The notes beneath the pieces are model-generated. The model was not told the DNA's origin and made no database searches. It was given only the letters and a program-made list of their open reading frames with translations. 43,968 nucleotides of DNA, taken from the NCBI GenBank assembly GCA_947177405.1, contig CAMWUJ010000020.1:1-43968 (forward strand). Direction: 5' to 3'. The translations under genes were made by a program, and so were the position numbers. Shown here in pieces: positions 25,993 through 43,571 of this stretch (its first letter is position 1; each line of letters begins with the position of its first letter). The DNA comes from an uncultured Porphyromonadaceae bacterium (GTDB taxonomy: Bacteria > Bacteroidota > Bacteroidia > Bacteroidales > Muribaculaceae).

Positions 25993-26039
25993 AGCCCCGT
26001 TCCTATTCAAAATCGATGAAAATAGGGATGGGGTTTTTT
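25993..26039 (+). terminator. Intrinsic terminator before the nuo/atp locus
   Basis: The left arm AGCCCCGTTCCTATT pairs with AATAGGGATGGGGTT (13-15 bp including G-T pairs), and TTTTTTG follows. It ends the TonB-receptor/lipoprotein unit. The T-tract and the next G at 26037-26040 double as the -33 element of the nuoA promoter. Confidence 0.88.
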
Positions 26040-26067
26040 GTTGATTAAGAAATTTTGAGTACCTTTG
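26037..26067 (+). promoter_or_regulatory. Promoter of the nuo-atp-nuo locus
   Basis: TTTG (26037-26040), a 19-nt spacer and TACCTTTG (26060-26067) match the Bacteroidetes consensus exactly. Transcription should begin near 26072, giving a leader of about 67 nt. The leader holds a near-palindrome, TTAG-G-ATTAAT-CTAA, at 26103-26117. I found no other consensus promoter in the gaps between genes as far as the end of nuoN. Confidence 0.82.
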
Positions 26068-26138
26068 CAGAGAGAAATGCGGATCTTAACCGTGAAACAC
26101 AATTAGGATTAATCTAACTAATTAAATAATAAGGATTT

Positions 26139-26510
26139 ATGAATCTATTGCTGGAGATAGGCAATGGTGTGCTTTCAATTACGGCCATGCTCACGGGTAT
26201 CGGCCTCGTTTTCGCTGCGCTATTGATTGCCAAATTGATTTCTCCGAGATCGTTCTCAGTTAAGAAATCAGAGCCATACGAATGTGGTATCCCGACCAGA
26301 GGTGAATCTATGATTCAGTTTAAGGCCGGATATTATATTTTCGCAATCCTTTTTCTGATTTTCGACGTGGAGACTATTTTTCTTTATCCATGGTCAGTGG
26401 TGATGCGTGGTCTCGGCCCGCAGGGAATCCTGTGCATCGTTATTTTTATGTTTGTGCTTATAATGGGCCTGGCATATGCTTGGCGGAAAGGAGCTCTTAA
26501 ATGGGAATAG
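26139..26510 (+). CDS. nuoA: NADH-quinone oxidoreductase (complex I) subunit A
   Basis: A 123-residue inner-membrane subunit with three transmembrane helices, near the quinone site at the junction of the membrane and peripheral arms. The conserved loop 'EPYECGIPTRGESMIQFKAGYYIFAILFLIFDVETIFLYPW' contains the family Cys and the helix-2 Asp/Glu pair. It is the first gene of the locus. Its last 10 nt overlap nuoB, indicating translational coupling. Confidence 0.96.
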   Translation: MNLLLEIGNGVLSITAMLTGIGLVFAALLIAKLISPRSFSVKKSEPYECGIPTRGESMIQFKAGYYIFAILFLIFDVETIFLYPWSVVMRGLGPQGILCIVIFMFVLIMGLAYAWRKGALKWE

Positions 26511-27115
26511 ACAAGATAAAAAGCATGTCGCGCGACGACTTCAAGGACAACGAGTATATCGACAAGCTCGTTGAAGAGCTTAATGCCACCGGTGCTAATG
26601 TGATGGTGGGCAAGATGGACGATCTTATCAACTGGGGTCGCGCCAATTCTCTTTGGCCTCTTTGTTTCGGTACATCCTGTTGCGCCATCGAGTTTATGAG
26701 CCTCGGTGCCGCTCGCTATGATATGGCGCGTTTCGGATTTGAGGTGGCCCGTAACTCACCTCGTCAGGCCGACTATATCATGGTTCAGGGAACTATCGTC
26801 CATCGTATGGCTCCCGTGATGCGTCGCCTCTATGAGCAGGTAGCCGAGCCTAAATATGTGATAGCATGCGGTGGCTGCGCCGTTTCAGGTGGCCCTTTCA
26901 AGAAAAGCTATTGTGTGGTGAATGGTGTGGATGAGATTCTTCCTGTGGATGTTTATATCCCGGGTTGTCCACCGCGTCCTGAAGCTATGTTCTACGGCCT
27001 GATGCAGCTCCAGCGCAAGATAAAGGTTGAGAGATTCTTCGGTGGTGCCAACCGTAAGGAGAAAATTGAGGAATTTTTCAAACAGCATCCCGAGGAAAAA
27101 GGTCATATTGGATAA
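26501..27115 (+). CDS. nuoB: Complex I subunit B (cluster N2)
   Basis: Carries the terminal [4Fe-4S] cluster N2 that reduces quinone. Ligands are the tandem Cys60-Cys61 (FGTSCCAIEFM), a Cys in CGGCAVSGGPF (123/126), and Cys156 in YIPGCPPRPEA. The length of 204 residues is normal. The first 10 nt overlap nuoA. nuoCD starts 37 nt downstream. Confidence 0.97.
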   Translation: MGIDKIKSMSRDDFKDNEYIDKLVEELNATGANVMVGKMDDLINWGRANSLWPLCFGTSCCAIEFMSLGAARYDMARFGFEVARNSPRQADYIMVQGTIVHRMAPVMRRLYEQVAEPKYVIACGGCAVSGGPFKKSYCVVNGVDEILPVDVYIPGCPPRPEAMFYGLMQLQRKIKVERFFGGANRKEKIEEFFKQHPEEKGHIG

Positions 27116-27152
27116 TAAAGCCGAGAGGCGATTTTAACAACGAACTGCTAAA

Positions 27153-28781
27153 ATGAGCGACATTAAAGATATAATCGTTAAAGTATGCCCGTCGGCTACA
27201 TTTGAAGAGGCTGATGTCCTTATGGTCAATGTGCCTGAGAAAGACTGGTATGACTTCGCTAAGGAATTGAAGAATAACCGCGAGCTCGATTTTGATGTCC
27301 TTACCGCTTTGGTCGGTATGGACTGGACGGAGACTGTCGGGGTTGTATATTATTTCACTTCCACTTCACATCACTGGGAGATGCTTTCCGTAAAAGTGGT
27401 GTGCGAGAATAGAGATGATGCATACATTCATAGTGTGAGCGACCTTTGGAAAGTGGCAAACTTCCAGGAGCGTGAGGCTTATGACCTGCTCGGAATCAAG
27501 TTTATCAACCATCCCGATATGCGACGTTTCTTCCTTCGTAATGACTGGGTGGGTCATCCTCTTCGTAAAGATTATGACGCAGATCCGAAACTTAACCCCA
27601 TCCGTCTTGATGATGAGGTGAATGAAGACGATTCCCGAATGTATATAGAGGAGGGTGGAAAGATTGTCGAGAAACCCTGTAAGGTATTCAAGGATGATGA
27701 TTATGTGGTGAATATAGGTCCGCAGCATCCATCCACACATGGAGTGATGCGTTTCCGCACTGCAATCGACGGTGAGGAGGTGAAGAAGGTGGATGTAGTT
27801 TCCGGATATATTCATCGTGGAATCGAGAAGCTTTGTGAAGATCTTACTTATCCTCAGATTCTGCATTTCACCGACCGTATGGATTATATGTCGGCTCATC
27901 AGAATCGTCATTGTCTATGTATGTGTATCGAGAAGGGTCTCGGTCTTGAAGTTCCCCGTCGTGCACAGGTGATACGTGTCATGATGGATGAACTCATGCG
28001 TATCTCGTCACATCTTCTTTCCTTCGGGTGTACAGCCATGGACCTTGGAGCCACAACCGCTTTCTTCTATGGTTTCCGTGAGCGTGAGATGGTGCTTGAT
28101 ATATTCGAGAAGACTTGTGGAGCCCGGATGTCGATGAACTATAATGTCATTGGTGGTGTTATAGCTGATCTCCACCCTGATTTCTGCAAGGATGTAAAGC
28201 ATCTCATAGAAATAATGCCCGAGCGTCTTAAGGAGTATCATAAGGTATTCTCCGGAAATATCATTGCAAAGAACCGTCTTAAAGGAGTAGGAATATTGCC
28301 TAAGGAAGATGCCGTGAACTACTGTATCACAGGCCCCAGTGGACGAGGTTCGAACTGGAGCTGCGACTGCCGCAAGAAACATCCTTATTCCGTATATCCG
28401 GAGCTTGACTTCGAGGAAGTGCTTTTGGATGGATGCGATTCCTACAGCCGTTATATGGTGCGTATGAAAGAGATCGAGCAGAGCTGCAAGATTCTTGCGC
28501 AGCTTGTGGATAATATCCCCGAGGGGGATATCCGTGCGCAGGTTCCCAAGATTGTAAAGCTCCCCGTGGGTCATTGGTATCAGCAGGTGGAGGCCAGCCG
28601 TGGAACATTCGGTGTATATATCGAATCGGACGGTGGAAAGAATCCTTACCGTGTGCATTTCCAGAGCCCTTGCTTCAATCTCGTGGGGGTGATGGATCTT
28701 TGTTGCCGTGGCAACATGATTGCCGACCTTATCACCATCGGCGCGGCACTTGACTTCGTAATCCCCGATATCGACAGATAA
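27153..28781 (+). CDS. nuoCD: Complex I fused subunits C and D
   Basis: A 542-residue fusion. Residues 1 to about 165 are NuoC (30-kDa subunit) with 'EREAYDLLGIKFINHPDMRRFFLRNDW'. A short acidic linker follows. Residues about 175-542 are NuoD (49-kDa subunit), with 'GPQHPSTHGVMRF' and 'HRGIEKLCEDLTYPQ', which line the quinone cavity and contact cluster N2. The fusion is known in several bacterial groups. In 14-subunit operons the next genes would be nuoE-F-G; here nuoH follows after 37 nt, so the NADH-oxidising module is missing. Confidence 0.96.
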   Translation: MSDIKDIIVKVCPSATFEEADVLMVNVPEKDWYDFAKELKNNRELDFDVLTALVGMDWTETVGVVYYFTSTSHHWEMLSVKVVCENRDDAYIHSVSDLWKVANFQEREAYDLLGIKFINHPDMRRFFLRNDWVGHPLRKDYDADPKLNPIRLDDEVNEDDSRMYIEEGGKIVEKPCKVFKDDDYVVNIGPQHPSTHGVMRFRTAIDGEEVKKVDVVSGYIHRGIEKLCEDLTYPQILHFTDRMDYMSAHQNRHCLCMCIEKGLGLEVPRRAQVIRVMMDELMRISSHLLSFGCTAMDLGATTAFFYGFREREMVLDIFEKTCGARMSMNYNVIGGVIADLHPDFCKDVKHLIEIMPERLKEYHKVFSGNIIAKNRLKGVGILPKEDAVNYCITGPSGRGSNWSCDCRKKHPYSVYPELDFEEVLLDGCDSYSRYMVRMKEIEQSCKILAQLVDNIPEGDIRAQVPKIVKLPVGHWYQQVEASRGTFGVYIESDGGKNPYRVHFQSPCFNLVGVMDLCCRGNMIADLITIGAALDFVIPDIDR

Positions 28782-28818
28782 TTCATATAGAAGTATAATC
28801 CAAATACAACTAACCAAA

Positions 28819-29898
28819 ATGTTTAATTTCGGACAATGGACAGCGGCCTTTAATTCATGGCTCATGGGTCTCGGCACTCCCGAATGGCTCGGGATTACCA
28901 TCGAGTGCGTAATAATAGCTGTTCTCATCCTTCTCACTTATACAGTTCTCGCACTGTTCTATATCCTCTATGAACGTAAGCTCTGCGCTTGGTTCCAGTG
29001 TCGCCTTGGTCCTATGCGTGTCGGCCCCTGGGGATTGCTGCAGGTCTTTGCAGATATGTTCAAGATTCTGATAAAGGAGCTTATATCACTTAAAGATACC
29101 GACCGGTTCCTCTTCAAGCTCGCTCCTTATATCCTCATTACTTCTTCAGTGGTGATGCTCGCCTGTCTCCCTTGGGGTAACGGTCTCCAGATTATCAATT
29201 GGAACATAGGTATTTTCTTCGTCTTAGCAGTTAGCTCTGTCGGTGTTCTGGGTATTCTCCTTGCCGGATGGGCTTCCAATAATAAATATACACTTATCGG
29301 TGCGATGCGAAGCGGTGCGCAGATGGTGAGCTACGAGCTTTCTCTCGGTCTTTCAATCATCACCATCATCGTGTTGTCAGGAACCATGAATATCAATGAT
29401 ATAGTGCTTGAACAGGCTAATGGATGGTTCATCTTCAAGGGCCATATTCCTGCCATCATTGCTTGTATAATCTATATCATTGCTGCCACAGCGGAGACCA
29501 ACCGTGGTCCGTTCGACCTTCCCGAGGCCGAGCATGAGTTGACTGCAGGTTATCACACAGAGTATTCAGGTATTCACTTCGGATTCTTTTATCTTGCCGA
29601 ATACCTTAATCTCTTCATCGTATCAGGTATAGCATCTCTGATGTTCCTTGGTGGATGGATGCCCCTCCATATCCCCGGGTGGGATGGCTTCAACGCAGTG
29701 ATGAACTGGATTCCTTCCATTGTATGGTTCATAGGAAAAGCATTCTTTATCTCCTTTGTCATCATCTGGTTCAAGTGGACTTTCCCCCGAGTGAGAATCG
29801 ACCAGATGCTTGCTTTCGAATGGAAGTATCTCATGCCTTTCTCACTTGCCAACCTTCTTCTCATGACATTGTGCGTGGCATTCGGATGGCATTTTTAA
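28819..29898 (+). CDS. nuoH: Complex I subunit H (quinone-site membrane subunit)
   Basis: A 359-residue, eight- or nine-helix membrane subunit that forms the quinone channel with NuoB/NuoD. Signatures: 'YERKLCAWFQCRLGPMRVGPWGLLQVFADMFKILIKE' near the N-terminus, and 'AETNRGPFDLPEAEHELTAGYHTEYSG' at about 220-246, an acidic loop essential for coupling. It ends the first nuo block. atpD begins only 40 nt downstream with no visible terminator or TAnnTTTG promoter between. Confidence 0.96.
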   Translation: MFNFGQWTAAFNSWLMGLGTPEWLGITIECVIIAVLILLTYTVLALFYILYERKLCAWFQCRLGPMRVGPWGLLQVFADMFKILIKELISLKDTDRFLFKLAPYILITSSVVMLACLPWGNGLQIINWNIGIFFVLAVSSVGVLGILLAGWASNNKYTLIGAMRSGAQMVSYELSLGLSIITIIVLSGTMNINDIVLEQANGWFIFKGHIPAIIACIIYIIAATAETNRGPFDLPEAEHELTAGYHTEYSGIHFGFFYLAEYLNLFIVSGIASLMFLGGWMPLHIPGWDGFNAVMNWIPSIVWFIGKAFFISFVIIWFKWTFPRVRIDQMLAFEWKYLMPFSLANLLLMTLCVAFGWHF

Positions 29899-29935
29899 AA
29901 AGTAAAAAAATAACGACCCTATAAGACTCTAATAA

Positions 29936-31441
<1,506 letters not shown>

Positions 31442-31498
31442 ATTTTAGTAAATGAAGTTTCGTTGAAAAACGACGCTTTTTAAAACGTAAAGAGAGTA

Positions 31499-31732
31499 AT
31501 GACACTTGAGATTATATCAGCTCATGAGATAACTTTTAAAGGCGAGGTGGAGTCGGTCACTCTGCCAGGTATGCTTGGCTCTTTTACCGTGTTGAGAAAC
31601 CACGCATCCTTGATTTCAGTCCTCGTGGCCGGGGATGTGAAGTATCTGGCCGGTGGTGAGACTCATTCCATTTCAATAAAGGGAGGTATCGCCGACGTGA
31701 ATAATAATGTGATTTCAGTGTGCATTTACTAA
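31499..31732 (+). CDS. atpC: F1Fo ATP synthase subunit epsilon, short form
   Basis: A 77-residue protein that aligns with only the N-terminal beta-sandwich domain of epsilon (MTLEIISAHEITFKGEVESVTLPGMLGSFTVLRNHASLIS). The usual bacterial subunit is about 130-140 residues, with a C-terminal helical hairpin that can inhibit ATP hydrolysis; that hairpin is absent. The stop is clean and atpB starts 11 nt later, so this is a native short form and not a frameshift. Short epsilon is, as I recall, common in Bacteroidetes. Confidence 0.9.
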   Translation: MTLEIISAHEITFKGEVESVTLPGMLGSFTVLRNHASLISVLVAGDVKYLAGGETHSISIKGGIADVNNNVISVCIY

Positions 31733-31743
31733 ACTCATATAAG

Positions 31744-33096
31744 ATGTCGAAAAGATTATCCAAAATATTGTTCCTCCTGGCGATTCTGGTTGCCGCTCCG
31801 TTCAAAGGCTTTGCGGAAGGGGGCGATGGACATGCCGAAGAAGAGAACCTTGATGTGAAGGAAATAATTTTCGAGCATCTTGGCGACGGCTATGGCTGGG
31901 AGGTGCCTTTTGCCCATGCCTATCGCATCCCACTTCCTGTGATTGTGAAGGCAGAAGATGGAAAATGGTTCTGTTTCTCTTCTTCCTCGCTTTCCAAGGT
32001 GGAATCGGTAGAGCATGACGGAAAGACTCATGCCGAAGCTGTTCCGGTAGTTAAGACAATCGATCGTGATGGCAAGACTTATTCTTTTGTGATCGCTCAT
32101 GTGAGCACACATAAGGATAAGGTGGTCCAGATATTCCCCTTGGATGCAAATCAGGAGCAGGAAGTGGCCAAAGAGGTTGCTGCCGCAAAGGCCCAGGGAC
32201 CTGTTAAGGGGGGCTGGCCTGTTATAGATGGATATGTATGTGTCGATGGTGTATATTATCGTGAATATCGCCCGTTGGATATTTCCATCACCAAGAATGT
32301 TGCAGCGCTCTTCATTTCCACTGCAATTGTGCTTTTGATTGTCATGTCGCTGGTGAGATTCTATCGTCGCCGTGGTCTCAAGGCTCCGAGAAAGGGCATG
32401 GGATTTATGGAACTTCTTGTCTCTTTCGTTTATGAGGGCACAATTAAGGCCACTCTCGGAGAGAATGCAAAGAAGTTTGCTCCTTACCTTCTTACATGCT
32501 TCTTTTTCATCCTTATAATGAACCTGCTTGGTCTGATCGTTATCTTCCCGGGAGGCGCTAACCTTACAGGAAATATTGCTATAACGCTTGTGTTAGCAGT
32601 GATGACTTTCGTGATGACCAATGTATTCGGTACAAAACATTATTGGAAGGAGATATTCTGGCCCGATGTTCCTTTGTGGTTGAAGTGTCCGCTTCCAATC
32701 ATGCAGTTTATCGAGATTTTCGGTATGTTCACCAAGCCGGCTGCATTGTGTGTGCGTCTCTTCGCCAATATGATGGGAGGACACATGATTGTAATCACTC
32801 TCACTCTCTTGATCTTTATCTTCGCGGCATTCGGAGCGGCGGTTGCAGGTGCCACAACAGTGGTTTCGATACTATTCTCACTCTTCATGCTTGCCCTTGA
32901 TGTGTTGGTCAGCTTTATCCAGGCCTATGTGTTCACCACGCTTTCCACAATCTTCATAGGAATGGCGGTTGAGCATGGAGATCATGAACATGCCAAGGAA
33001 CATCCCCATACTGCACAGGGAGAAGCTGATGCCGCAGAGGCTGAAGCGCAGAAGGAGAGATTCGCAAAGGAAGCAGCCTCGATGGATTTAAAATAA
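31744..33096 (+). CDS. atpB: F1Fo ATP synthase subunit a with extended N-terminus
   Basis: Proton-channel stator subunit. I place the start at the ATG at 31744 (MSKRLSKILFLLAILVAAPF); an upstream in-frame ATG at 31720 overlaps atpC. A signal peptide covers 1-25. A periplasmic domain follows at about 26-180 ('EIIFEHLGDGYGWEVPFAHA' at its start). The membrane part begins at about 190. The essential Arg is Arg338 in ALCVRLFANMMGGH. A His/Glu/Ala-rich C-terminal tail (EHGDHEHAKEHPHT) ends the protein. At 450 residues it is far longer than E. coli AtpB (271). An N-terminal domain is typical of Bacteroidetes, though this one seems large. atpE starts 69 nt later. Confidence 0.93.
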   Translation: MSKRLSKILFLLAILVAAPFKGFAEGGDGHAEEENLDVKEIIFEHLGDGYGWEVPFAHAYRIPLPVIVKAEDGKWFCFSSSSLSKVESVEHDGKTHAEAVPVVKTIDRDGKTYSFVIAHVSTHKDKVVQIFPLDANQEQEVAKEVAAAKAQGPVKGGWPVIDGYVCVDGVYYREYRPLDISITKNVAALFISTAIVLLIVMSLVRFYRRRGLKAPRKGMGFMELLVSFVYEGTIKATLGENAKKFAPYLLTCFFFILIMNLLGLIVIFPGGANLTGNIAITLVLAVMTFVMTNVFGTKHYWKEIFWPDVPLWLKCPLPIMQFIEIFGMFTKPAALCVRLFANMMGGHMIVITLTLLIFIFAAFGAAVAGATTVVSILFSLFMLALDVLVSFIQAYVFTTLSTIFIGMAVEHGDHEHAKEHPHTAQGEADAAEAEAQKERFAKEAASMDLK

Positions 33097-33112
33097 ATGG
33101 AGCTTTTAGCTC

Positions 33113-33418
<306 letters not shown>

Positions 33419-33420
<2 letters not shown>

Positions 33421-33481
33421 ATTTTCCATACCTGTATTCAGGCGCCGGCGGCGTCAACCGACACCGCCGGTGTGGAAATTT
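33419..33481 (+). promoter_or_regulatory. Structured RNA element between atpE and atpF
   Basis: The gap can fold into a closed three-way junction. The outer stem is AAATTT(T)CCA (33419-33428) with TGGAAATTT (33473-33481). A small hairpin is CCTG (33431-33434) with CAGG (33439-33442). A long GC hairpin is CGCCGGCGG (33443-33451) with CCGCCGGTG (33464-33472), extended by GTC-AACC-GAC at its tip. No T-tract follows, so it is not a standard terminator. It may protect or process the atpE message. Confidence 0.6.
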
Positions 33482-33495
33482 AAATTATTAAGAGA

Positions 33496-33990
33496 ATGGA
33501 ATTATTCACGCCTGATTTCGGCTTGGTTTTCTGGATGTTCATAGCTTTCATCCTGTTGTTCCTCGTGCTTGCGAAATGGGGTTGGCCTGTTATCATCAAG
33601 AGTATGGAGAGCAGGGCCAATACCATCGACCAAGGTGTGGAGGATGCCAGGAAAGCAAAGGAACAGCTTGACAATGCCCGAGAGGAAGCAAAGAAATATG
33701 TGGAGGAAGCGCAGGCCAAACAGGCTGAGATGCTCCGTGATGCCGCAAAGATGAAAACAGAGATCATCGAGCAGGCAAAGCAGGAGGCAGCCGAGGCAGC
33801 CCGTCGCGAAATGGATGCCGCAAAGCTTTCTATCGAGCAGGCACGCAAGGAAGCTGAGCTTCAATTTAGAAATGAAGTCGGTAAGTTCTCGATCGACATC
33901 GCTGAAAAAATGGTCCGCGACCAGATGAAAAGTGATGATGCGCAGAAAAGACTTGTCGATAAGTTATTAGACGAAATAGAGAAAAACTGA
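33496..33990 (+). CDS. atpF: F1Fo ATP synthase subunit b
   Basis: A 164-residue peripheral-stalk protein. One N-terminal transmembrane helix (residues about 8-30, GLVFWMFIAFILLFLVLAKW) is followed by a long charged, Ala/Glu/Lys-rich coiled coil that dimerises and contacts AtpH. Only one b gene is present, so a homodimeric stalk is expected. It is 7 nt before atpH. Confidence 0.95.
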   Translation: MELFTPDFGLVFWMFIAFILLFLVLAKWGWPVIIKSMESRANTIDQGVEDARKAKEQLDNAREEAKKYVEEAQAKQAEMLRDAAKMKTEIIEQAKQEAAEAARREMDAAKLSIEQARKEAELQFRNEVGKFSIDIAEKMVRDQMKSDDAQKRLVDKLLDEIEKN

Positions 33991-33997
33991 TAAGCTG

Positions 33998-34543
33998 ATG
34001 ATATCCGGATTAATACCCCACAGATATGCCAAGGCGCTTTATAAGTTCGCCTTGGAGACCCGGAGTGCCGACAGGGTCTATGATGAGATGAAGGCCGTGA
34101 TAGCCTCTTTTCAGAAGAATCCCGAGCTCTCCAAGGTGTTGTCCAATCCGTTTGTCGAGGCGGCCGACAAGGAGAAGCTCCTTATCGCCGCTGCCGGAAA
34201 TAATCCGGGTGACGATTACAAGCGCTTTGTCAGACTTATTCTCGATCATAAGAGAGAAGAGTTCGCTTATCTCATGGCTTATGCCTATCGCGACATATAC
34301 CGGAAGGAGAACAATATCTCCCAGGTGAGAATTGTGACTGCCGTCAAGCTTGGCGAAGCTGAAATGAAGAAGTTGCGCGATATAGTGGAGAAATCGTTCA
34401 GGAATACCACTTTCGAATATTCCGAATCAGTTGATCCCGATCTTATCGGTGGCTTCATCATAGATGTTGACTCCGTGAGAATGGATGCCTCCTTGAGTAA
34501 TGAACTCGAACAATTACGTCAAACCCTCATAAGAAGCAATTAA
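33998..34543 (+). CDS. atpH: F1Fo ATP synthase subunit delta
   Basis: A 181-residue OSCP-type protein joining the peripheral stalk to the top of F1. The N-terminal helical domain starts with '[15 protein letters not shown]', a family hallmark. The C-terminal part contains '[30 protein letters not shown]', the conserved OSCP C-terminal motif. Spacing to atpF is 7 nt and to atpA is 4 nt, so translation is likely coupled. Confidence 0.95.
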
Positions 34544-34547
34544 GAAA

Positions 34548-36134
34548 ATGCTTAATCCCAGCGAAATATCAGATGTTTTGAAACAAGAGCTCGAAAACAT
34601 CAATTCAAAGGTCAAATTTGAAGAAGTCGGCACTGTCCTCAGTGTCGGTGATGGCGTGGCTCACGTCTATGGACTGGAGAATGTAAGAAGTAATGAGCTC
34701 GTAGAATTTGAGAATGGCGCCAAGGGCGTGGCTCTCAACCTTGAGGAAAGCAACGTCGGTGTTGTGCTGCTCGACAAAGTAAACTCCGTTACGGAGAATA
34801 TGTCGGTGAAGCGCACGGGTGAGATTGCTTCAATTCCTGTAGGGGAGGGGCTGCTTGGCCGAGTCATTAATATTCTTGGTGATCCTATTGATGGCAAAGG
34901 CCCGATCGAAGGTGAACGCTTCAATCTGCCTCTTGACCGCAAGGCTCCCGGTGTGATCTATCGTCAGCCGGTGAACCAGCCTTTGCAGACCGGCCTTAAG
35001 GCTGTCGATTCAATGATTCCTATTGGTCGTGGCCAGCGTGAGCTTATCATCGGTGACCGTCAGGTAGGTAAGACAGCAATTGCTATCGACACCATTATCA
35101 ACCAGCGTGAAAACTTTGAGAAAGGTAAGCCGGTATATTGTATTTATGTGGCTATCGGGCAGAAAGCATCCACAGTGGCATCAATTGTAAATACATTGAC
35201 CAAATATGGTGCGATGGAATATACGGTGATTGTGGCTGCAAATGCTTCCGACTCCGCTACTTCCCGCTATTATGCTCCCTTTGCGGGGTGTGCTATCGGA
35301 GAGTTCTTCCGCGATTCAGGTCGTGATGCCCTTATTGTTTATGATGATTTGTCAAAGCAGGCGGTGGCATATCGTGAGATATCACTTATCCTTAAGCGTC
35401 CTTCAGGACGTGAGGCATATCCCGGCGATATTTTCTATCTCCATTCTCGTCTGCTTGAACGTGCCGCACGTATCATTACGGACCAAAAAGTGGCCGAGGA
35501 GATGAACGATCTTCCGGAGGTTATGAAACCTCTGGTGAAGGGTGGTGGTTCGTTGACCGCGCTTCCTATTATCGAGACACAGGCGGGCGACGTTTCAGCT
35601 TATATCCCAACCAACGTAATCTCCATTACAGACGGTCAGATCTTCCTTGAGACCAACCTATTCAACCAGGGTATCCGCCCGGCGATCAATGTAGGTATTT
35701 CCGTTTCCCGTGTGGGTGGTAATGCTCAGATAAAGGCGATGAAGAAGGTGGCCGGTACGTTGAAAATAGCACAGGCACAGTATCGTGAACTTGAATCATT
35801 CACCAAGTTCGGTGGAGATATCGACCCTGTGACAGCTCGTGTCATCGATCGCGGTAGAAAGAACCAGCAACTCCTTATCCAGCCCCAGTATCATCCGTGG
35901 CCTGTGGAGAATGAGATCGCTGTGATCTATTGCGGTGTGAACGGCCTTCTTGAGAATGTGCCTCTCGACAGCGTGCATGATTTTGAAGAGCAGTTCCTTC
36001 AGCAGCTTAAGATGACTTTCCCCACAGCCCTTGATGAGCTGAGAAAAGGTGTGCTCTCTCAGGAAGTTGAAGACCAGCTCACAAAGGTTGCGACTGAAGT
36101 TGCCAACCGCATAGCTTCAGCAAGCAAGAAATAA
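34548..36134 (+). CDS. atpA: F1Fo ATP synthase subunit alpha
   Basis: The regulatory nucleotide-binding F1 subunit, 528 residues. Walker A is GDRQVGKT with Lys175. The alpha/beta signature is '[14 protein letters not shown]', and the N-terminal crown begins '[19 protein letters not shown]'. Length and motifs are normal. It follows atpH by 4 nt and precedes atpG by 34 nt. Confidence 0.97.
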
Positions 36135-36168
36135 ATTATAATAACAGCGTAACAACACTCATAAAAGC

Positions 36169-37056
36169 ATGGCGACCCTACGGGAATTAAAAACGCGTAT
36201 CGGATCTGTGGCATCCAGTGAGAAAATCACAGGTGCCATGAAAATGATCTCTTCCGCTAAGGTGCATCAAAATGAGCAGGCATTAAAGAAACTTGCTCCT
36301 TTCAGAAATCAGATTCAGTCGATTCTGGGACACATCCTCTCTACCGATGAGAATTTTAATTCTCCTCTGATAGAGAAGAGAGAGGTTAAAAATGCCTCAG
36401 TAATTGTATATGGTTCTGACGATGGCTTGTGCGGAGCGTATAATATGAATATCTTCAAAGGGTTTCTCGTTGAGCTAAATAAGATTAAAGAGACCTATGG
36501 GAGAGACGTGAAGATCACGGTCTATCCTGTAGGCTCGAAAATCGCAAAGGCCGTGAAGCGTCTTGAAAGCGATTTGCTCGAAGTTAAAATTCCCCAGGGA
36601 ATCGACAGCAAGATGAAAGGTGAGACAGTAACAGATTTCACCCGTAAACTCCGTGATTCCTTTATCATCGGCGAGACTGATCTTGTGGAGGTGGTATATA
36701 TGAGATTCATCTCAATGGGGCGTCAGGTGCTCGACTGCGAGCAGCTTTTCCCCGTTGTGGCAGATGAACTTCTGAAAGGGGAATCGCGTGAGGAAGAAAA
36801 TCAGCTCTATATCTTTGAGCCGGACCCCAACACGATCTTCAATGAGGTTCTCCCGATGTTTGTCACATCGACAATGCAGGAGATAACTGTGGAAAACCGT
36901 GCTTCTGAACAGGCTGCAAGGGTAATGGCTATGCAGGCTGCCAACGACAATGCGAAAAAGCTGTTCGATCAGTTGCAGCTTGAGTATAATAAGTTGCGTC
37001 AGGAAAGCATCACCACTGAGCTACTTGATATTCTTGGAGGTCAGGTGGAGAGGTAA
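36169..37056 (+). CDS. atpG: F1Fo ATP synthase subunit gamma
   Basis: The rotating central shaft, 295 residues. The N-terminal helix contains 'LRELKTRIGSVASSEKITGAMKMISSAKV', and the C-terminal helix contains 'ENRASEQAARVMAMQAANDNAKKLFDQLQLEYNKLRQESITTELLDILGG'-like residues that form the coiled coil. The central Rossmann-like part carries the 'SDDGLCGAYN' motif. It is the last atp gene; nuoI starts 39 nt later with no terminator between. Confidence 0.96.
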   Translation: MATLRELKTRIGSVASSEKITGAMKMISSAKVHQNEQALKKLAPFRNQIQSILGHILSTDENFNSPLIEKREVKNASVIVYGSDDGLCGAYNMNIFKGFLVELNKIKETYGRDVKITVYPVGSKIAKAVKRLESDLLEVKIPQGIDSKMKGETVTDFTRKLRDSFIIGETDLVEVVYMRFISMGRQVLDCEQLFPVVADELLKGESREEENQLYIFEPDPNTIFNEVLPMFVTSTMQEITVENRASEQAARVMAMQAANDNAKKLFDQLQLEYNKLRQESITTELLDILGGQVER

Positions 37057-37095
37057 CGAAGTAAAATTGACTTCAATAATTCAGAACAACACATA

Positions 37096-37626
37096 ATGGG
37101 TAGTATAAAAGAATATTTCAGTTCTGTCGGCAGTGGTGTCAAGAGTCTGCTCACCGGTATGGGGGTCACAGGAAAGGAATTTGTGACTCCAAAGATTACC
37201 GAGCAGTATCCCGAGAATAGGGCCACTCTTGATATTTCGGATCGATTCAGAGCTGAATTGACATTGAAATATGATGCCGAAGGTCGCCACAGATGTATCG
37301 CCTGCGGTATATGTCAGATGAATTGTCCCAACGGCACCATTACTCTTAAGACAAAGATGGTGGAATTGCCCGACGGAAAGAAGAAAAGAAAACTTGACGA
37401 GTATCTTTATGATTTGGGAAGCTGCACATTCTGTATGCTTTGTGTCACAACCTGTCCTCAGGATGCACTGGAATTTTCCAACGATTTCGAGCAGGCAGTC
37501 TTTACTCGCGACAAGCTTGTGAAGAAATTGAATTATCGTCCGGAAGTTCCTGATCCCGTGCCCGCTCCCAAGCCGGCTCCAAAACCTGCAGCCGCCAAAG
37601 ATAATGAAGCGAAAAAAGAAAATTAA
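37096..37626 (+). CDS. nuoI: Complex I subunit I (two [4Fe-4S] ferredoxin-like)
   Basis: A 176-residue peripheral subunit carrying clusters N6a/N6b. The first CxxCxxCxxxCP motif is CIACGICQMNCP with Cys67, 70, 73 and 77. The second is CTFCMLCVTTCP with Cys110, 113, 116 and 120. The C-terminus is a Pro/Ala/Lys-rich tail (PVPAPKPAPKPAAAK) that looks disordered. Without NuoE/F/G this subunit is the most exposed Fe-S entry point and so the likely docking site for an alternative electron donor such as ferredoxin (inference). It opens the second nuo block after the atp genes; nuoJ follows after 13 nt. Confidence 0.96.
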   Translation: MGSIKEYFSSVGSGVKSLLTGMGVTGKEFVTPKITEQYPENRATLDISDRFRAELTLKYDAEGRHRCIACGICQMNCPNGTITLKTKMVELPDGKKKRKLDEYLYDLGSCTFCMLCVTTCPQDALEFSNDFEQAVFTRDKLVKKLNYRPEVPDPVPAPKPAPKPAAAKDNEAKKEN

Positions 37627-37639
37627 AACATCAATATAA

Positions 37640-38167
37640 ATGGATTCAGTCGCAAATATAATCTTATATTTTATCGTGGCTATCGCAATGGTCGTGTTTT
37701 CCGTGATGACTGTCACAACTCGTAAGATCTTGCGCTCGGCCACATATCTGCTTTTTGTGCTCCTGTCTACAGCCTTCTTCTATTTCCAGTTGGGGTATCA
37801 ATTTCTTGGAGCCGTGCAGATTGCGGTCTATGCAGGTGGCATTATGGTGCTCTTTGTATTCTCTATCTTGCTTACAAGACATCCTGACGAGAAAGCGGCA
37901 TTGCTCACTCATCACAAACGTTTCCTTGGCATTTCACTGTCGGTTGTATCGCTTGTAGTTCTGCTCTTTGCCCTCTTCAAGATGCCGCTGCTGCATGGGA
38001 AGTCGCTCACTGAGATGATTGCTGCCGGCAATGACATCACAATGCAGGAGATTGGTCACGCTCTGGTAGGGACGGAGAAGTTCCAGTATCTTCTTCCGTT
38101 TGAGGCAGTCAGTGTTTTGCTTTTAGCATGTATAATCGGCGGCGTGGTTGTTGCCCGTAAAAGATAA
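37640..38167 (+). CDS. nuoJ: Complex I subunit J
   Basis: A 175-residue membrane subunit with five transmembrane helices, part of the E-channel next to the quinone site. 'LGAVQIAVYAGGIMVLFVFSILL' is the conserved helix 3 with its pi-bulge region. The C-terminal helix ends 'LLLACIIGGVVVARKR'. It sits 5 nt before nuoK. Confidence 0.95.
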   Translation: MDSVANIILYFIVAIAMVVFSVMTVTTRKILRSATYLLFVLLSTAFFYFQLGYQFLGAVQIAVYAGGIMVLFVFSILLTRHPDEKAALLTHHKRFLGISLSVVSLVVLLFALFKMPLLHGKSLTEMIAAGNDITMQEIGHALVGTEKFQYLLPFEAVSVLLLACIIGGVVVARKR

Positions 38168-38172
38168 GTATC

Positions 38173-38484
38173 ATGGATTTGAGTATGTTATGGTATCTTG
38201 TGCCGAGCGTGATAATGTTCACGGCCGGTGTATTCGGGTTTGTGACCCGGAAAAATATGATCGCGATGCTCATCTCGCTTGAGCTTATCCTTAATTCCGC
38301 TGATCTGAATTTCGTGATTTTCAACCGTTTCCTTTTCCCCGGTCAGATGGAGGGTATGATTTTCACCCTCTTTGCCATCGCTATCGCGGCAGCTGAGACT
38401 GCAGTGGCAATTGCGATTATCATAAACATCTATCGTTCGATTGGAAACACAGATATTAACTCTGCAAAAGAAATGCGCCACTGA
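38173..38484 (+). CDS. nuoK: Complex I subunit K
   Basis: A 103-residue, three-helix antiporter-like membrane subunit. The two buried glutamates needed for proton transfer are visible in 'LISLELILNSADLNFVIF' (helix 2) and 'IAIAAAETAVAIAIIINIYR' (helix 3). It lies 5 nt after nuoJ and 27 nt before nuoL. Confidence 0.95.
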   Translation: MDLSMLWYLVPSVIMFTAGVFGFVTRKNMIAMLISLELILNSADLNFVIFNRFLFPGQMEGMIFTLFAIAIAAAETAVAIAIIINIYRSIGNTDINSAKEMRH

Positions 38485-38511
38485 TCTCTCAGAGGCTAAA
38501 AAGAAAAAAGT

Positions 38512-40443
38512 ATGGGCATAACACTTCCTATATTGATTCTTGCGATTCCTTTCACAATGTTCCTTGTGCTGGGAATCGGCGGCGTGAAGATGCCGCGCAA
38601 GGTGGCCGGTGTGATCGGTATCCTTGCCAATGCTACTCTTCTTGCTATCTGTTATACCGTCGCTTTCCGCTATTTCTTTAGTGGTGACCCGCAGTTTATT
38701 AATGCTGAGGGTGTGCGTCAGCAGTTGCAGGTGTTTGATGTGACCTGGCTCGCTTTCACTGAAAGGCTTGTTGTCAACATCGGTTTCCTTCTTGATCCTA
38801 TTTGTGCGATGATGCTTGTGGTAATATCCACTATTTCGTTCATGGTTCACCTCTACAGTTGGGGTTATATGGAGCATGAGCCCGGATTCCAGCGTTATTA
38901 TGCATTCCTTGCTCTCTTCACATTCTCAATGCTCGGCCTTGTGGTAGCAACCAACATTTTCCAGATGTATATCTTCTGGGAGCTTGTGGGTGTCTCCTCA
39001 TTCCTTCTGATCGGCTTCTTCTATAAACTCCCCTCGGCGGTATCTGCTTCCAAGAAAGCATTTATCGTGACACGTTTCGCCGATCTCGGAATGTTGCTCG
39101 GTATCCTCGTGCTTACATTCTATTTCCCGAGCTTCAATTTTATCGACCTTACTTCAAACACCGGTTCAGTAGTTGCTTCCATGGGTGGAGCTTCTTTCCT
39201 TGGAGCTTCCGTGCTCACATGGGCTCTCGTGCTAATCTTCACCGGAGGTATGGGTAAGTCAGCGATGATGCCCCTTCATATCTGGCTTCCCGATGCAATG
39301 GAAGGTCCTACTCCCGTGTCGGCTCTTATCCATGCCGCCACAATGGTTGTGGCCGGTGTATATCTTGTAGCCAGAATGTTCCCCTTGTATCTGTGCGAGG
39401 AGAGCGCATTGCAGTTTATCACATGGGTGGGCGCGATTACGGCTTTCTATGCAGCGGTAGTGGCATGCTGCCAGATCGACATCAAGAGAATCCTTGCATT
39501 CTCCACTATCTCTCAGATTGCATTTATGATGGTATCGCTCGGTGTGGCACGTCCCGACCTTCACGAAGGTCTCGGATATATGGCCTCCATGTTCCATCTG
39601 TTCACTCACGCGATGTTCAAGGCTCTTCTCTTCCTTGGTGCAGGTGCTTTGATCCATGCGGTGCATAGCAATAACTATACCGCCATGGGTGGCCTCCGCA
39701 AATATATGCCTATCACCCATTGGACTTTCCTTATCGGATGTCTTGCGATTGCCGGTATCTGGCCTTTCTCCGGTTTCTTCTCAAAAGATGAGATGCTGAG
39801 CGCGATGTTCTCGCTTTCACCTTTCTGGGGTTACTGGATGACAATGGTTGCAGGTCTCACTGCGTTCTATATGTTCCGTATGTATTTCCTTGTGTTCTGG
39901 TGGGAGGAGAATCCTCATTACAAGGATCACAAGCCACACGACGCACCCTGGCAGATGTCGGTTCCTCTGATTATTCTTGCTTTGGTTTCTTGTGTGGCAG
40001 GTTTCATACCTTTCGGTCATTTTGTGACCTGGAACCGCGAAGCATACAATATCCATATCAATCCGCAGGTTGCAGCCACCTCTCTCTCAGTGGCTATCAT
40101 AGCGATTGCATTTGCTGCATGGCTCTATCTTAAGAAGAATGATAAGCCGGCGATGATGCGTCAGGCGCTTCCAGCACTGTGGCAGGCCGCCCACCGTCGT
40201 TTCTACTGGGATGAAATCTATCTTTTCATCACACGTAAGATAATATTCGGTGGGATCTGTAAGGGAATCGCTTGGTTCGATCGTCATGTGATTGATGCCA
40301 CTATGGATGCTTTCGCTTCAGTGACCCAATATGTGTCGGTTAAGATCAAGGGTATGCAGAGCGGTAGTGTTCAGACTTATGTGATATGGTATTTCCTCGG
40401 CGCTTTAGTGCTTGCAGCTATCACATGGCTTTGCATAATTTAA
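38512..40443 (+). CDS. nuoL: Complex I subunit L (proton-pumping antiporter-like)
   Basis: A 643-residue distal proton-pumping subunit. The key Glu is in 'IFWELVGVSSFLLIGFF' and the key Lys in 'GGMGKSAMMPLHIWLPDAMEGPTPVSALIHAATMVVAGVYL'. The C-terminal region (about 540-643) holds the amphipathic lateral helix that clamps the membrane arm, with 'RFYWDEIYLFIT' before it, and the final anchor helix. Length is in the normal range. Confidence 0.96.
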   Translation: MGITLPILILAIPFTMFLVLGIGGVKMPRKVAGVIGILANATLLAICYTVAFRYFFSGDPQFINAEGVRQQLQVFDVTWLAFTERLVVNIGFLLDPICAMMLVVISTISFMVHLYSWGYMEHEPGFQRYYAFLALFTFSMLGLVVATNIFQMYIFWELVGVSSFLLIGFFYKLPSAVSASKKAFIVTRFADLGMLLGILVLTFYFPSFNFIDLTSNTGSVVASMGGASFLGASVLTWALVLIFTGGMGKSAMMPLHIWLPDAMEGPTPVSALIHAATMVVAGVYLVARMFPLYLCEESALQFITWVGAITAFYAAVVACCQIDIKRILAFSTISQIAFMMVSLGVARPDLHEGLGYMASMFHLFTHAMFKALLFLGAGALIHAVHSNNYTAMGGLRKYMPITHWTFLIGCLAIAGIWPFSGFFSKDEMLSAMFSLSPFWGYWMTMVAGLTAFYMFRMYFLVFWWEENPHYKDHKPHDAPWQMSVPLIILALVSCVAGFIPFGHFVTWNREAYNIHINPQVAATSLSVAIIAIAFAAWLYLKKNDKPAMMRQALPALWQAAHRRFYWDEIYLFITRKIIFGGICKGIAWFDRHVIDATMDAFASVTQYVSVKIKGMQSGSVQTYVIWYFLGALVLAAITWLCII

Positions 40444-40475
40444 TAATTCATATTGCTTAGTAATAACGTTACATC

Positions 40476-41990
40476 ATGTTTAGTAATATCTTAATCTGGT
40501 TTGTTATAGTCCCCGTCTTGATGATGATCGGGCTCGCTTTCTGCGACAACAGCAATATGAAGGCGATCCGCGGGGTTATGGTGGCCGGTTCGACAGTACT
40601 CCTTGCCATGTCAATATGGCTTGTGGTGGATTTCCTCGGACTTCGAGCTGCCGGTGACACATCCGAAATGCTCTATATGGGAAGCTGGATGTGGTACGCA
40701 CCACTTAATATCCATCTTGCCGTAGGTGTGGATGGTATTTCTGTCCTGATGCTACTCCTCTCCGGTATCATCGTTTTTGCCGGCACATTCGCATCATGGA
40801 AGATTGACCCGCTGCCCAAGAATTTCTTCCTTTGGTTCTGCCTCCTTTCTACCGGTGTATTCGGTTTCTTTATCTCTATCGACATGTTCACCATGTTCAT
40901 GTTCTATGAGGTGGCACTTATCCCGATGTATCTTCTTATCGGTGTTTGGGGCACAGGACGCAAGGAGTATTCAGCAATGAAGCTTACCCTTATGCTTATG
41001 GGTGGTTCTGCATTCCTAATGCTCGGCCTTCTTGGAATATATTGGCATGGCACGCCTGAGGGTGGTGTTCATACCTGGAATATTCTTGAGATATCCCATA
41101 ATGCTTCAATTGATCCGAGTTGGCAGAATCTTCTTTTCTGCTTCACATTCGTTGGCTTCGGTGTGCTTGGCGCGATGTTCCCCTTCCATACATGGTCACC
41201 CGACGGTCATGCATGTGCTCCGACAGCAGTTTCGATGCTTCATGCAGGTGTGCTTATGAAACTTGGTGGTTACGGATGCTTCCGTATCGCCATCTTCCTT
41301 TGCCCCGCAGCAGCACAGGAGCTCTCATGGATATTCATCATCCTTACCGGTATCTCAGTGGTTTACGGTGCATTCTCGGCTTGTGTTCAGACCGACCTCA
41401 AGTATATCAACGCCTATTCTTCGGTATCACACTGTGGTATGGTGTTGTTTGCAATCCTGATGCTTAATCAGACAGCCATGACAGGTGGAATCCTCCAGAT
41501 GCTCTCACATGGTCTGATGACAGCACTCTTCTTTGCATTAATCGGTATGATCTACGGACGCACACATACACGTGACATACGCGAGATGGGCGGAATGATG
41601 CAGATAATGCCTTATCTTGGAGTGTGCTATATGATCGCCGGTTTCGCATCATTAGGTCTGCCCGGTCTGTCGGGATTCGTGGCTGAGATGACAATCTTCT
41701 TCGGAGCCTTCGAGCACAGCGAGCTCTTCTATCGATTCTTTGTAATCGCCGGCACCTCATCAATTGTAATCACCGCGGTATATATCCTCCGCGTTGTGGG
41801 CAAGGTGATTCTTGGTCCGGTGCAGAATGAGCACCACCGTGAGCTCACTGATGCTGCATGGTGGGAGCGTCTTGCCACTGTCACTCTTATCGTCTGTCTG
41901 GCCGGCATAGGTTTCTTCCCCAATTGGCTCAACGAAACCATACGGGTTAGCTTCGAACCTATCATCAATGCATTGAACTCCGTTTTCTAA
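40476..41990 (+). CDS. nuoM: Complex I subunit M (proton-pumping antiporter-like)
   Basis: A 504-residue proton-pumping subunit of about 14 helices. The conserved Glu is in 'MFYEVALIPMYLLIGVWG'. The conserved helix-break region is 'GAMFPFHTWSPDGHACAPTAVSMLHAGVLMKLGGYG', with its Lys, and 'GLSGFVAEMTIF' follows. It lies 32 nt after nuoL and 32 nt before nuoN. Confidence 0.96.
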   Translation: MFSNILIWFVIVPVLMMIGLAFCDNSNMKAIRGVMVAGSTVLLAMSIWLVVDFLGLRAAGDTSEMLYMGSWMWYAPLNIHLAVGVDGISVLMLLLSGIIVFAGTFASWKIDPLPKNFFLWFCLLSTGVFGFFISIDMFTMFMFYEVALIPMYLLIGVWGTGRKEYSAMKLTLMLMGGSAFLMLGLLGIYWHGTPEGGVHTWNILEISHNASIDPSWQNLLFCFTFVGFGVLGAMFPFHTWSPDGHACAPTAVSMLHAGVLMKLGGYGCFRIAIFLCPAAAQELSWIFIILTGISVVYGAFSACVQTDLKYINAYSSVSHCGMVLFAILMLNQTAMTGGILQMLSHGLMTALFFALIGMIYGRTHTRDIREMGGMMQIMPYLGVCYMIAGFASLGLPGLSGFVAEMTIFFGAFEHSELFYRFFVIAGTSSIVITAVYILRVVGKVILGPVQNEHHRELTDAAWWERLATVTLIVCLAGIGFFPNWLNETIRVSFEPIINALNSVF

Positions 41991-42022
41991 TCGACAATTC
42001 AGAATTATAAACAATAATAACA

Positions 42023-43483
42023 ATGGATTATTCACAATTTGGGGCGATGTTGCCCGAGCTCATAATTCTGGGTCTGTTCTTCGTGGTCTTCCTTGCCGAT
42101 ACATTCAGCAAGGAGGGAGAAAAGAAATGGCTCACTCCCTTCACAACTATTCTTTTCTTGCTTTCCACTGTTGCCATCTGGCTGATACCTGCTTCCGGAG
42201 AAACAATCTTCGGAGGGATGTATGTGGACGACACGGCATGCAAGGCCATGAAAGCTATTTTGAATATAGGTGTGTTCATAGTATTCCTTCAGGCTGCCGA
42301 ATGGACTGAAAGCGATGAGATGATTGTTCGCAAGGGAGAGTTCTACGAGTTGATTCTGGTAACTCTCTTCGGAATGTATCTCATGATATCAGCACGCCAT
42401 TTCCTTATTTTCATCATTGGTCTGGAATCCGCCTCGTTACCTCTTGCTGCTCTGGTGGCCTTCAATAAGAAACATTATGAGAGCCATGAGGCTGCAATAA
42501 AGTATATTCTTACCGCGGTGTTCTCTTCAGCTATCCTGATGGCCGGTCTTTCATATATATATGCTCTTTCCGGAGGTTCACTATATTTTGCAGATATAGC
42601 AAAGGCTGTGACTGAGGGCACAAGAAGCGGACTTCTGATTGTTGGGCTGGCTTTCCTTATCGCCGGTATCGGTTTCAAGTTGTCGCTTGTTCCTTTCCAT
42701 CTCTGGACAGCCGATGTATATCAGGGAGCACCTACAGCAGTGACCAGCTATCTTTCTGTGGTATCTAAAGGGGCTGCGGCTTATGCATTCTTCATTATCT
42801 TTGTCCAGGTGTTCGGTGCCGTATTCAGCGATCTCTGGGAGTGGATGATGTATGCTGTGATCATTCTTACCATTACAGTGGGTAACCTCTTCGCAATGCG
42901 TCAGAAGAATATGAAACGCTTTATGGCATTCTCTTCTATCTCGCAGGCAGGTTACATCATGCTTGGTGTGATGGCAGGCAATCTTGGTCTGGCGTCGATG
43001 ATGTTCTATATCTTCGTATATATTGTCAGCAACCTTGGTGCCTTTGCCGTGATCGCAGCCATCGAGAGCAAGACCGGCAAAGTTGGAATGGATGACTACG
43101 ACGGTCTCCATAAGACCAATCCCTGGCTTTCGTTTGTGATGACATTAGCGATGTTCTCGCTTGCAGGTATTCCTCCATTCGCAGGATTCTTTAGTAAGAT
43201 TCTTATCTTTACTTCAGTCACTGCAAGCAACTCAATGGCATTGTATATGCTCGTATTAGTAGCCCTGATCAACACTATTATCTCTCTTTATTATTATCTT
43301 CTTGTGGTTAAAGCCATCTGGATCAAGCCTGGGGAAGCAAAGATTGAGAGATTTGACAGCACTCGCTGCGAGAGAGTAGGATTGGTGATATGCGTTCTTG
43401 GTATAGTATTCTTCGGTCTCGTACCCTACATCTACGATTATTGCTACGAGGCGGTAAAGACGGCATATGGGATTCTCATCTGA
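42023..43483 (+). CDS. nuoN: Complex I subunit N (proton-pumping antiporter-like)
   Basis: A 486-residue proton-pumping subunit. 'GLESASLPLAALVAFNKKHYESHEAAIKYIL' includes the conserved acidic residue, 'SLVPFHLWTADVYQGAPTAVTSYLSVVSKGAA' the central Lys region, and 'LAGIPPFAGFFSKILIF' a later family motif. It is the last gene of the nuo/atp locus; a strong terminator follows 52 nt after the stop. Confidence 0.96.
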   Translation: MDYSQFGAMLPELIILGLFFVVFLADTFSKEGEKKWLTPFTTILFLLSTVAIWLIPASGETIFGGMYVDDTACKAMKAILNIGVFIVFLQAAEWTESDEMIVRKGEFYELILVTLFGMYLMISARHFLIFIIGLESASLPLAALVAFNKKHYESHEAAIKYILTAVFSSAILMAGLSYIYALSGGSLYFADIAKAVTEGTRSGLLIVGLAFLIAGIGFKLSLVPFHLWTADVYQGAPTAVTSYLSVVSKGAAAYAFFIIFVQVFGAVFSDLWEWMMYAVIILTITVGNLFAMRQKNMKRFMAFSSISQAGYIMLGVMAGNLGLASMMFYIFVYIVSNLGAFAVIAAIESKTGKVGMDDYDGLHKTNPWLSFVMTLAMFSLAGIPPFAGFFSKILIFTSVTASNSMALYMLVLVALINTIISLYYYLLVVKAIWIKPGEAKIERFDSTRCERVGLVICVLGIVFFGLVPYIYDYCYEAVKTAYGILI

Positions 43484-43534
43484 TTGAGATAAGACTTTAG
43501 AAGACACAAAACAATATATCGATCATAGTTTCCG

Positions 43535-43571
43535 GAGACGCATCTTTTTAGGATGCGTCTCTTTTATTTTT
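43535..43571 (+). terminator. Intrinsic terminator closing the nuo-atp-nuo locus
   Basis: GAGACGCATC (43535-43544) pairs with GATGCGTCTC (43552-43561), a perfect 10-bp stem with a T-rich 7-nt loop, followed by TTTTATTTTT. It is the first clear terminator after 26039, and so defines a unit of about 17.5 kb. Confidence 0.93.

Follow-up and report, generated by a model that had tools for sequence, protein, structure and literature searches.

Why does a complete set of ATP synthase genes lie in the middle of the genes for respiratory complex I, and are the two machines made from one message? This question is raised by a stretch of 43,968 nucleotides (nt) from an uncultured Porphyromonadaceae bacterium of the Muribaculaceae lineage (contig CAMWUJ010000020.1 of assembly GCA_947177405.1), which we analyzed at its full length and refer to as the window. 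On its plus strand, 18 open reading frames (ORFs) follow one another in the order nuoA-B-CD-H, atpD-C-B-E-F-H-A-G and nuoI-J-K-L-M-N, the three blocks spanning positions 26139-29898, 29939-37056 and 37096-43483. A first-pass annotation of this DNA had claimed this order on one strand, with junctions of 40 and 39 nt between the blocks, and both the ORF list and the best NCBIfam matches agree with it. From the comparison of related sequences reported here, we consider it probable that the atp set was relocated into the genes of a headless complex I, and that the 18 genes now form one transcription unit.

Spread and origin of the nested order

With AtpG as the query, named genomes yielded 390 relatives, and the analysis covers the 80 that matched best (62-87% identity). 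Record titles among them include Muribaculaceae, Porphyromonadaceae, Bacteroidales and Bacteroides sp.; the family assignment used here is taken from such titles, not from a formal classification. Gene order in these 80 loci was read by tblastn with the window proteins. In all 80, atpG is followed by nuoI, nuoH adjoins atpD in each of the 70 loci with both genes (gaps of 24-137 nt), and 54 loci contain all 18 genes; the median junction gaps in Muribaculaceae are 61 nt for nuoH-atpD and 45 nt for atpG-nuoI. Chance cannot account for this order, from which no related locus inspected departs over the length it covers. The genome G368, from which locus L050 derives, has two NuoA matches on different contigs, pointing to a duplicate or a mixed bin.

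For a survey across the order, PF00146 matched in 208 of 344 sampled genomes, of which the 133 with a best E-value below 1e-105 were followed; an AtpD match with an E-value of 1e-120 or lower was present in 122 of these. Among these 122 Bacteroidales genomes with both genes, 27 are nested, 91 have the two genes non-adjacent as far as their positions were printed or their sequence fetched, and four are undecided (G056, G074, G204 and G309), their NuoH position not being among the matches listed. All NuoH positions were taken among the matches listed, and second NuoH copies may be missed. The nested class was assigned by coordinates plus sequence in 18 genomes, by sequence alone in three and by coordinates alone in six, and the non-adjacent class by coordinates in 88 and by the fetched atpD region in three (G045, G258 and G327); contig edges may mask adjacency in some of these 91, for example in G249 with its partial AtpD match. 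The view that nuo and atp are normally apart in Bacteroidales, voiced in the first-pass annotation, consequently holds for 91 of the 122 genomes and fails for the 27 nested ones. The gene-neighborhood search proposed at the same time found both adjacencies throughout the named loci and traced the nested order to seven family codes: f1 (that of the window), f22, f28, f60, f68, f88 and f109.

In the six nested families other than that of the window, all 20 fetched loci are nested over the stretch they cover (L095 stops at atpE), and the order is complete in two single-contig genomes (L091 and L098). Where the nuo locus is separate, nuoH is followed by nuoI in all 15 fetched cases, with gaps of -4 to 250 nt. 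Outside the order, 54 genomes were chosen from the phylum, where 131 genomes, that of the window included, have a match; AtpD was found in 51 of the 54, and in none does it adjoin a listed NuoH on the same strand. In four of them (G384, G394, G507 and G512) NuoH and AtpD lie 7 to 22 kilobases (kb) apart on opposite strands.

Two trees bear on the origin of this arrangement. Both are quick reconstructions without bootstraps, with a midpoint root that serves for drawing only, and both took the same 16 of the 80 named loci; the nuo tree omitted L111, which has a much more distant complex I. The nuo tree was built from five concatenated Nuo proteins and has 51 rows; its 37 nested rows make up one side of a branch with a support of 100 in the Shimodaira-Hasegawa-like approximate likelihood ratio test (SH-aLRT), and in the AtpD tree (62 rows, 37 nested) they again make up one side of a branch, with a support of 90. 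The window sits among Muribaculaceae-type relatives in both. The separate family f106 stands beside the nested rows in the AtpD tree and with f59 and f9 in the nuo tree. Since all sampled separate families show the other state, a single gain of the nesting is the simplest and likely reading of these sequences: the whole atp operon would have moved once into the gap between nuoH and nuoI in an ancestor of the seven Bacteroidales families, and would afterwards have shed its promoter, in Muribaculaceae at any rate. An origin of the atp genes by horizontal transfer was considered and rejected because the nested families stand together in both the AtpD and the Nuo trees, although this does not amount to a full congruence test.

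Promoter motifs and the case for one transcript

The window has the features expected of a single operon: all genes lie on one strand, the gaps are short (-13 to 75 nt within the nuo and atp sets), a promoter stands at the head, and the junctions carry neither promoter motif nor terminator. The promoter is a match to the Bacteroidetes type, TTTG-N19-TACCTTTG, and occupies positions 26037-26067 of the plus strand, before nuoA; on the same strand, a terminator scan found an intrinsic-terminator-like hairpin of 13 pairs with a T-rich tail after nuoN (43534-43562). Both signals had been called in the first-pass annotation, which had further reported the two junctions as free of terminators and of the motif TAnnTTTG. 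Neither was indeed found in the 40 nt between nuoH and atpD (29899-29938, gene edges 29898 and 29939) or in the 39 nt between atpG and nuoI (37057-37095, gene edges 37056 and 37096) when all plus-strand occurrences of the motif in the window were listed and terminator-like hairpins were scanned for. The nearest TAnnTTTG 5' of nuoI, at 36810, lies within atpG and is explained as atpG codons.

To extend this view to the relatives, TAnnTTTG was counted in the 150 nt 5' of each gene, with first-order Markov resamples as the expectation; a stricter version required TTG 18 to 23 nt 5' of TAnnTTTG. Except for nuoA, the Muribaculaceae counts of motifs and hairpins include the window. For nuoA, 32 of the 80 named loci were sampled and yielded 30 loci, 29 after L157 had been dropped as too short; the genome behind L164 has two nuoA copies, and the L164 stretch among the 29 belongs to the second. 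The motif precedes nuoA in 29 of 29 Muribaculaceae-type loci (4.3 expected), in 25 of them together with the upstream TTG (0.4 expected), and in 8 of 14 separate loci (1.7 expected). Before atpD it is found in 17 of 24 separate relatives (3.4 expected) versus only 2 of 71 nested Muribaculaceae (4.1 expected), a contrast with a Fisher p of about 2e-11 that overstates the independence of the rows, as they share descent. Before nuoI the motif occurs in none of 81 Muribaculaceae loci and in 1 of 19 other nested loci, and in its full form it is scarce within the coding sequence of nuoH (2 of 71) and atpG (0 of 81).

As the atpD motif is missing in nested Muribaculaceae and present in separate relatives, and the nuoA motif is kept, the comparison favors one transcript, in line with what the first-pass annotation had suggested. 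In Muribaculaceae the atp promoter has likely been lost, with the atp genes now read from the nuoA promoter; for the other nested families, the case for one transcript is weaker. A single transcript of about 17.5 kb, running from the nuoA promoter to the terminator after nuoN, would carry both machines, and changes in nuoA promoter activity would raise or lower complex I and ATP synthase in step. With the atp promoter lost, expression of the ATP synthase would depend on the nuo promoter. The fixed stoichiometry that had also been claimed does not follow from this and finds no support: one mRNA does not set subunit ratios, and the F1Fo enzyme needs several subunits in multiple copies, their translation being set gene by gene.

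A number of observations weigh against this reading. The motif is lacking before 7 of the 24 separate atpD genes, and Bacteroidetes promoters may lack a clear motif; when the upstream TTG is demanded, the atpD counts are 6 of 24 in separate relatives, 2 of 71 in nested Muribaculaceae and 1 of 20 in the other nested families. In these latter families, TAnnTTTG precedes atpD in 4 of 20 loci (2.0 expected) and nuoA in only 8 of 20 (2.9 expected). Muribaculaceae carry the motif before nuoB, within nuoA, in 16 of 56 loci (5.0 expected), never with the upstream TTG, and in the 350 nt 5' of nuoI in 21 of 81 loci, there within atpG, the case in the window being one of codons. Before nuoH, at 28771-28799, there is a sigma-70 type match (11 of 12 positions); it is of the E. 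coli type, and that scan, with 37 matches found versus 31.9 expected in the window, is uninformative. A weak hairpin of 5 pairs that resembles a terminator lies in the atpD-atpC gap (31461-31475), from a scan that found 20 versus 15.9 expected. Across Muribaculaceae, the scan for terminator-like hairpins is positive after nuoH in 1 of 71, after atpG in none of 81 and after nuoN in 19 of 65 loci. As the expected end after nuoN is detected in only 19 of 65, the silence of the terminator scan elsewhere tells little, and its outcome carries little weight. Such hairpins turn up in the other nested families after atpG (3 of 19 loci), after nuoJ (7 of 19) and after nuoN (7 of 18).

The atpD and nuoA counts from these other families would also fit a frozen neighborhood, that is, a chance arrangement that originated once and persisted, with atp and nuo expressed separately from unrecognized internal promoters. 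The single origin to which both trees point agrees with such a history, and with one origin the conservation of the nesting counts as one event. However, the junction gaps have stayed short despite deep divergence, the atpD motif in Muribaculaceae falls below expectation where the nuoA motif is universal, and the scarcity of the full motif within nuoH and atpG provides little for internal promoters of this type. We therefore regard separate expression from a frozen neighborhood as rather unlikely, and favor relocation of the atp set followed by transcription of all 18 genes as one unit.

Gene content, subunit extensions and the type of complex I

All genes of the locus lie on the plus strand, and their NCBIfam matches are above the model cut-offs unless stated otherwise. 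The first block consists of nuoA (26139-26510; NADH-quinone oxidoreductase subunit A, 1.9e-31, below cut-offs), nuoB (26501-27115; NF011391), nuoCD, in which C and D are fused (27153-28781; C at 25-143 with TIGR01961 below its cut-off, D at 184-542 with NF004739), and nuoH (28819-29898; NF004741). The ATP synthase is encoded by atpD for beta (29939-31441; TIGR01039), atpC for epsilon in a short form of 77 amino acids (aa) (31499-31732; TIGR01216 at 59.7 bits, slightly below the cut-off of 67.25), atpB for a (31744-33096; TIGR01131 and Pfam ATP-synt_A), atpE for c (33166-33420; TIGR01260), atpF for b (33496-33990; TIGR01144), atpH for delta (33998-34543; NF009964), atpA for alpha (34548-36134; TIGR00962) and atpG for gamma (36169-37056; TIGR01146). 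The start of atpB is probably the ATG at 31744 and not the GTG at 31720, where the ORF opens. The last block holds nuoI (37096-37626; TIGR01971 at 102 bits, below the cut-off of 113, with two C-x2-C-x2-C-x3-CP motifs), nuoJ (37640-38167; E 7.7e-22, below cut-offs), nuoK (38173-38484; NF004320), nuoL (38512-40443; NF005141), nuoM (40476-41990; TIGR01972) and nuoN (42023-43483; TIGR01770). Even for nuoA, nuoI, nuoJ and atpC, whose scores stay below the cut-offs, the best matches are still the expected families.

The F-type ATP synthase is thus complete, with eight subunits and catalytic P-loops in atpD (GGAGVGKT) and atpA (GDRQVGKT). A Na+-type c subunit is marked by a Gln plus a Glu-Ser pair; read by eye, both are absent from the product of atpE. 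In the separate relatives, the atpC-atpB gap holds an ORF of 119-142 aa in 8 of 9 loci checked (L106, L112, L123-L127 and L137); its product is hydrophobic and, by eye, AtpI-like. The same gap is short in nested loci (medians of 12 and 23 nt) and in the separate family f106 (L102 and L104).

The ten nuo genes encode the 11-subunit, headless set of complex I (NuoA, B, C, D, H and I-N). NuoE, NuoF and NuoG were not found at the locus, NuoE and NuoG having been looked for there only, and a search of the window's own genome with PF01512 (NuoF/RnfC) gave zero matches in an assembly that is 91.6% complete; the same search was positive in 9 of 14 control genomes. Since this assembly yielded no NuoF-type protein, an NADH-driven complex I of the ordinary kind was rejected. 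The first-pass annotation had overlooked that NuoEFG are missing from the locus; what it called the proton pump is therefore a complex I of the headless type, which does not act as an NADH dehydrogenase in the usual way. The genome encodes nqrA-D on a different contig, and the sole NqrB/RnfD-type match to PF03116 is NqrB. An RnfC-type protein was not found in the genome with PF01512 and PF03116, though rnf genes are listed for Phocaeicola vulgatus (PMC11405475). Should this absence be real, ferredoxin could pass its electrons to the membrane mainly through headless complex I in this bacterium.

Published work on related bacteria offers several clues to the electron route. The headless NUO complex of Bacteroides fragilis shows no NADH:quinone activity; NQR and NDH2 oxidize NADH in this species, and the electron donor of NUO was left open (PMC7002350). 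Reduced ferredoxin is named as the donor in P. vulgatus (PMC11405475), and in Prevotella the headless complex may turn sodium gradients into proton gradients (PMC6560451). By analogy with these relatives, the headless complex I of the window would pass electrons from reduced ferredoxin or another donor to menaquinone and pump protons, which would then drive the ATP synthase, NADH oxidation being left to the Na+-NQR encoded elsewhere in the genome.

Two subunits of the locus are enlarged in Muribaculaceae. The C-terminus of NuoI in the window carries a long tail rich in Ala, Pro and Lys; NuoI has a median length of 209 aa in this family (164-265, n=80, L002-L081) versus 154 aa in the other nested loci (148-162, n=19). 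AtpB is about 75 aa longer (medians of 436.5 aa, n=72, versus 359 aa, n=19), and by eye the added residues come after a signal-like N-terminus and before the first conserved membrane segment, with a charged tail in addition. One might imagine that, once the atp operon had been inserted and its promoter given up, complex I, which relatives such as B. fragilis express weakly and can do without, became obligatorily co-made with the ATP synthase, and that the Muribaculaceae pair is physically coupled through the NuoI tail and AtpB; we hold this to be highly unlikely. Even less probable in our judgment is the general proposition that the nesting aids physical assembly, complex I and ATP synthase being synthesized as neighbors in the membrane and associating there: adjacency by itself would suit it, as might the two extensions, but none of the loci from the six further nested families has these extensions, which are consequently not tied to the nesting. 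Finally, an error of assembly or binning that joined two contigs, conceivable for an assembly of 142 contigs that is 92% complete, has a negligible probability and is refuted by independent assemblies, since 80 of 80 independent loci, including Isolate-036 and Isolate-037 (L008 and L031), agree as far as each extends and the order recurs in the single-contig genomes of other families, so that the blocks are truly contiguous.

Upstream of the locus, a 317-aa protein (25010-25963), without a match at E 0.001 in an NCBIfam and Pfam search, is encoded next to a gene resembling TonB-dependent receptors, with the nuoA promoter on its other side, and a 1920-aa alpha-2-macroglobulin-like protein with MG2, A2M and bMG10 domains is encoded at 15875-21637.

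Comparison with known systems

The group described as S24-7 or 'Ca. Homeothermaceae' is now Muribaculaceae. In S24-7 genomes, an F-type ATP synthase within the complex I locus was reported by Ormerod et al. (2016; PMC4936053), and the nested arrangement itself has thus been known since 2016. Their locus and that of the window have in common the atp genes inside the complex I locus, 11 of 14 subunits without NuoEFG, and the presence of Nqr. What we add, as far as the seen part of the publication extends, is the spread to six further families, the likely single origin with its event tree and the promoter comparison. A full-text search of open-licence papers brought up no further description of the nesting recognizable from title or abstract start, and no transcription-start paper on Muribaculum, among the matches listed. 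In the genome H5 of Ormerod et al., 85% complete, both complexes are missing together, which these authors took as a true absence because other genomes of similar completeness have complex I (PMC4936053).

The eight atp genes of the window share the order beta-epsilon-a-c-b-delta-alpha-gamma with the Bacteroidetes atp unit; in the accessible part of its description, that unit is treated as a transcription unit of its own and complex I neighbors are not mentioned, whereas the set studied here is nested (PMC5709465). The nuo operon of B. fragilis, like that of the window, lacks nuoEFG, NADH being oxidized by NQR and NDH2; unlike in the window, atp genes are not mentioned in it in the text at hand (PMC7002350). 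In rich medium, expression of this operon is poor, and a deletion of it causes no competitive colonization defect (PMC7002350).

Set against these systems, the comparison makes the nesting a testable case of operon fusion, with a likely single relocation followed by loss of the inner promoter in one family. If the locus is indeed read as one transcript, there would be reason to study the electron donor of headless complex I, as Muribaculaceae could then not make their ATP synthase without this complex, unlike B. fragilis. The nested families would thereby have lost the freedom of B. fragilis to drop or underexpress nuo.

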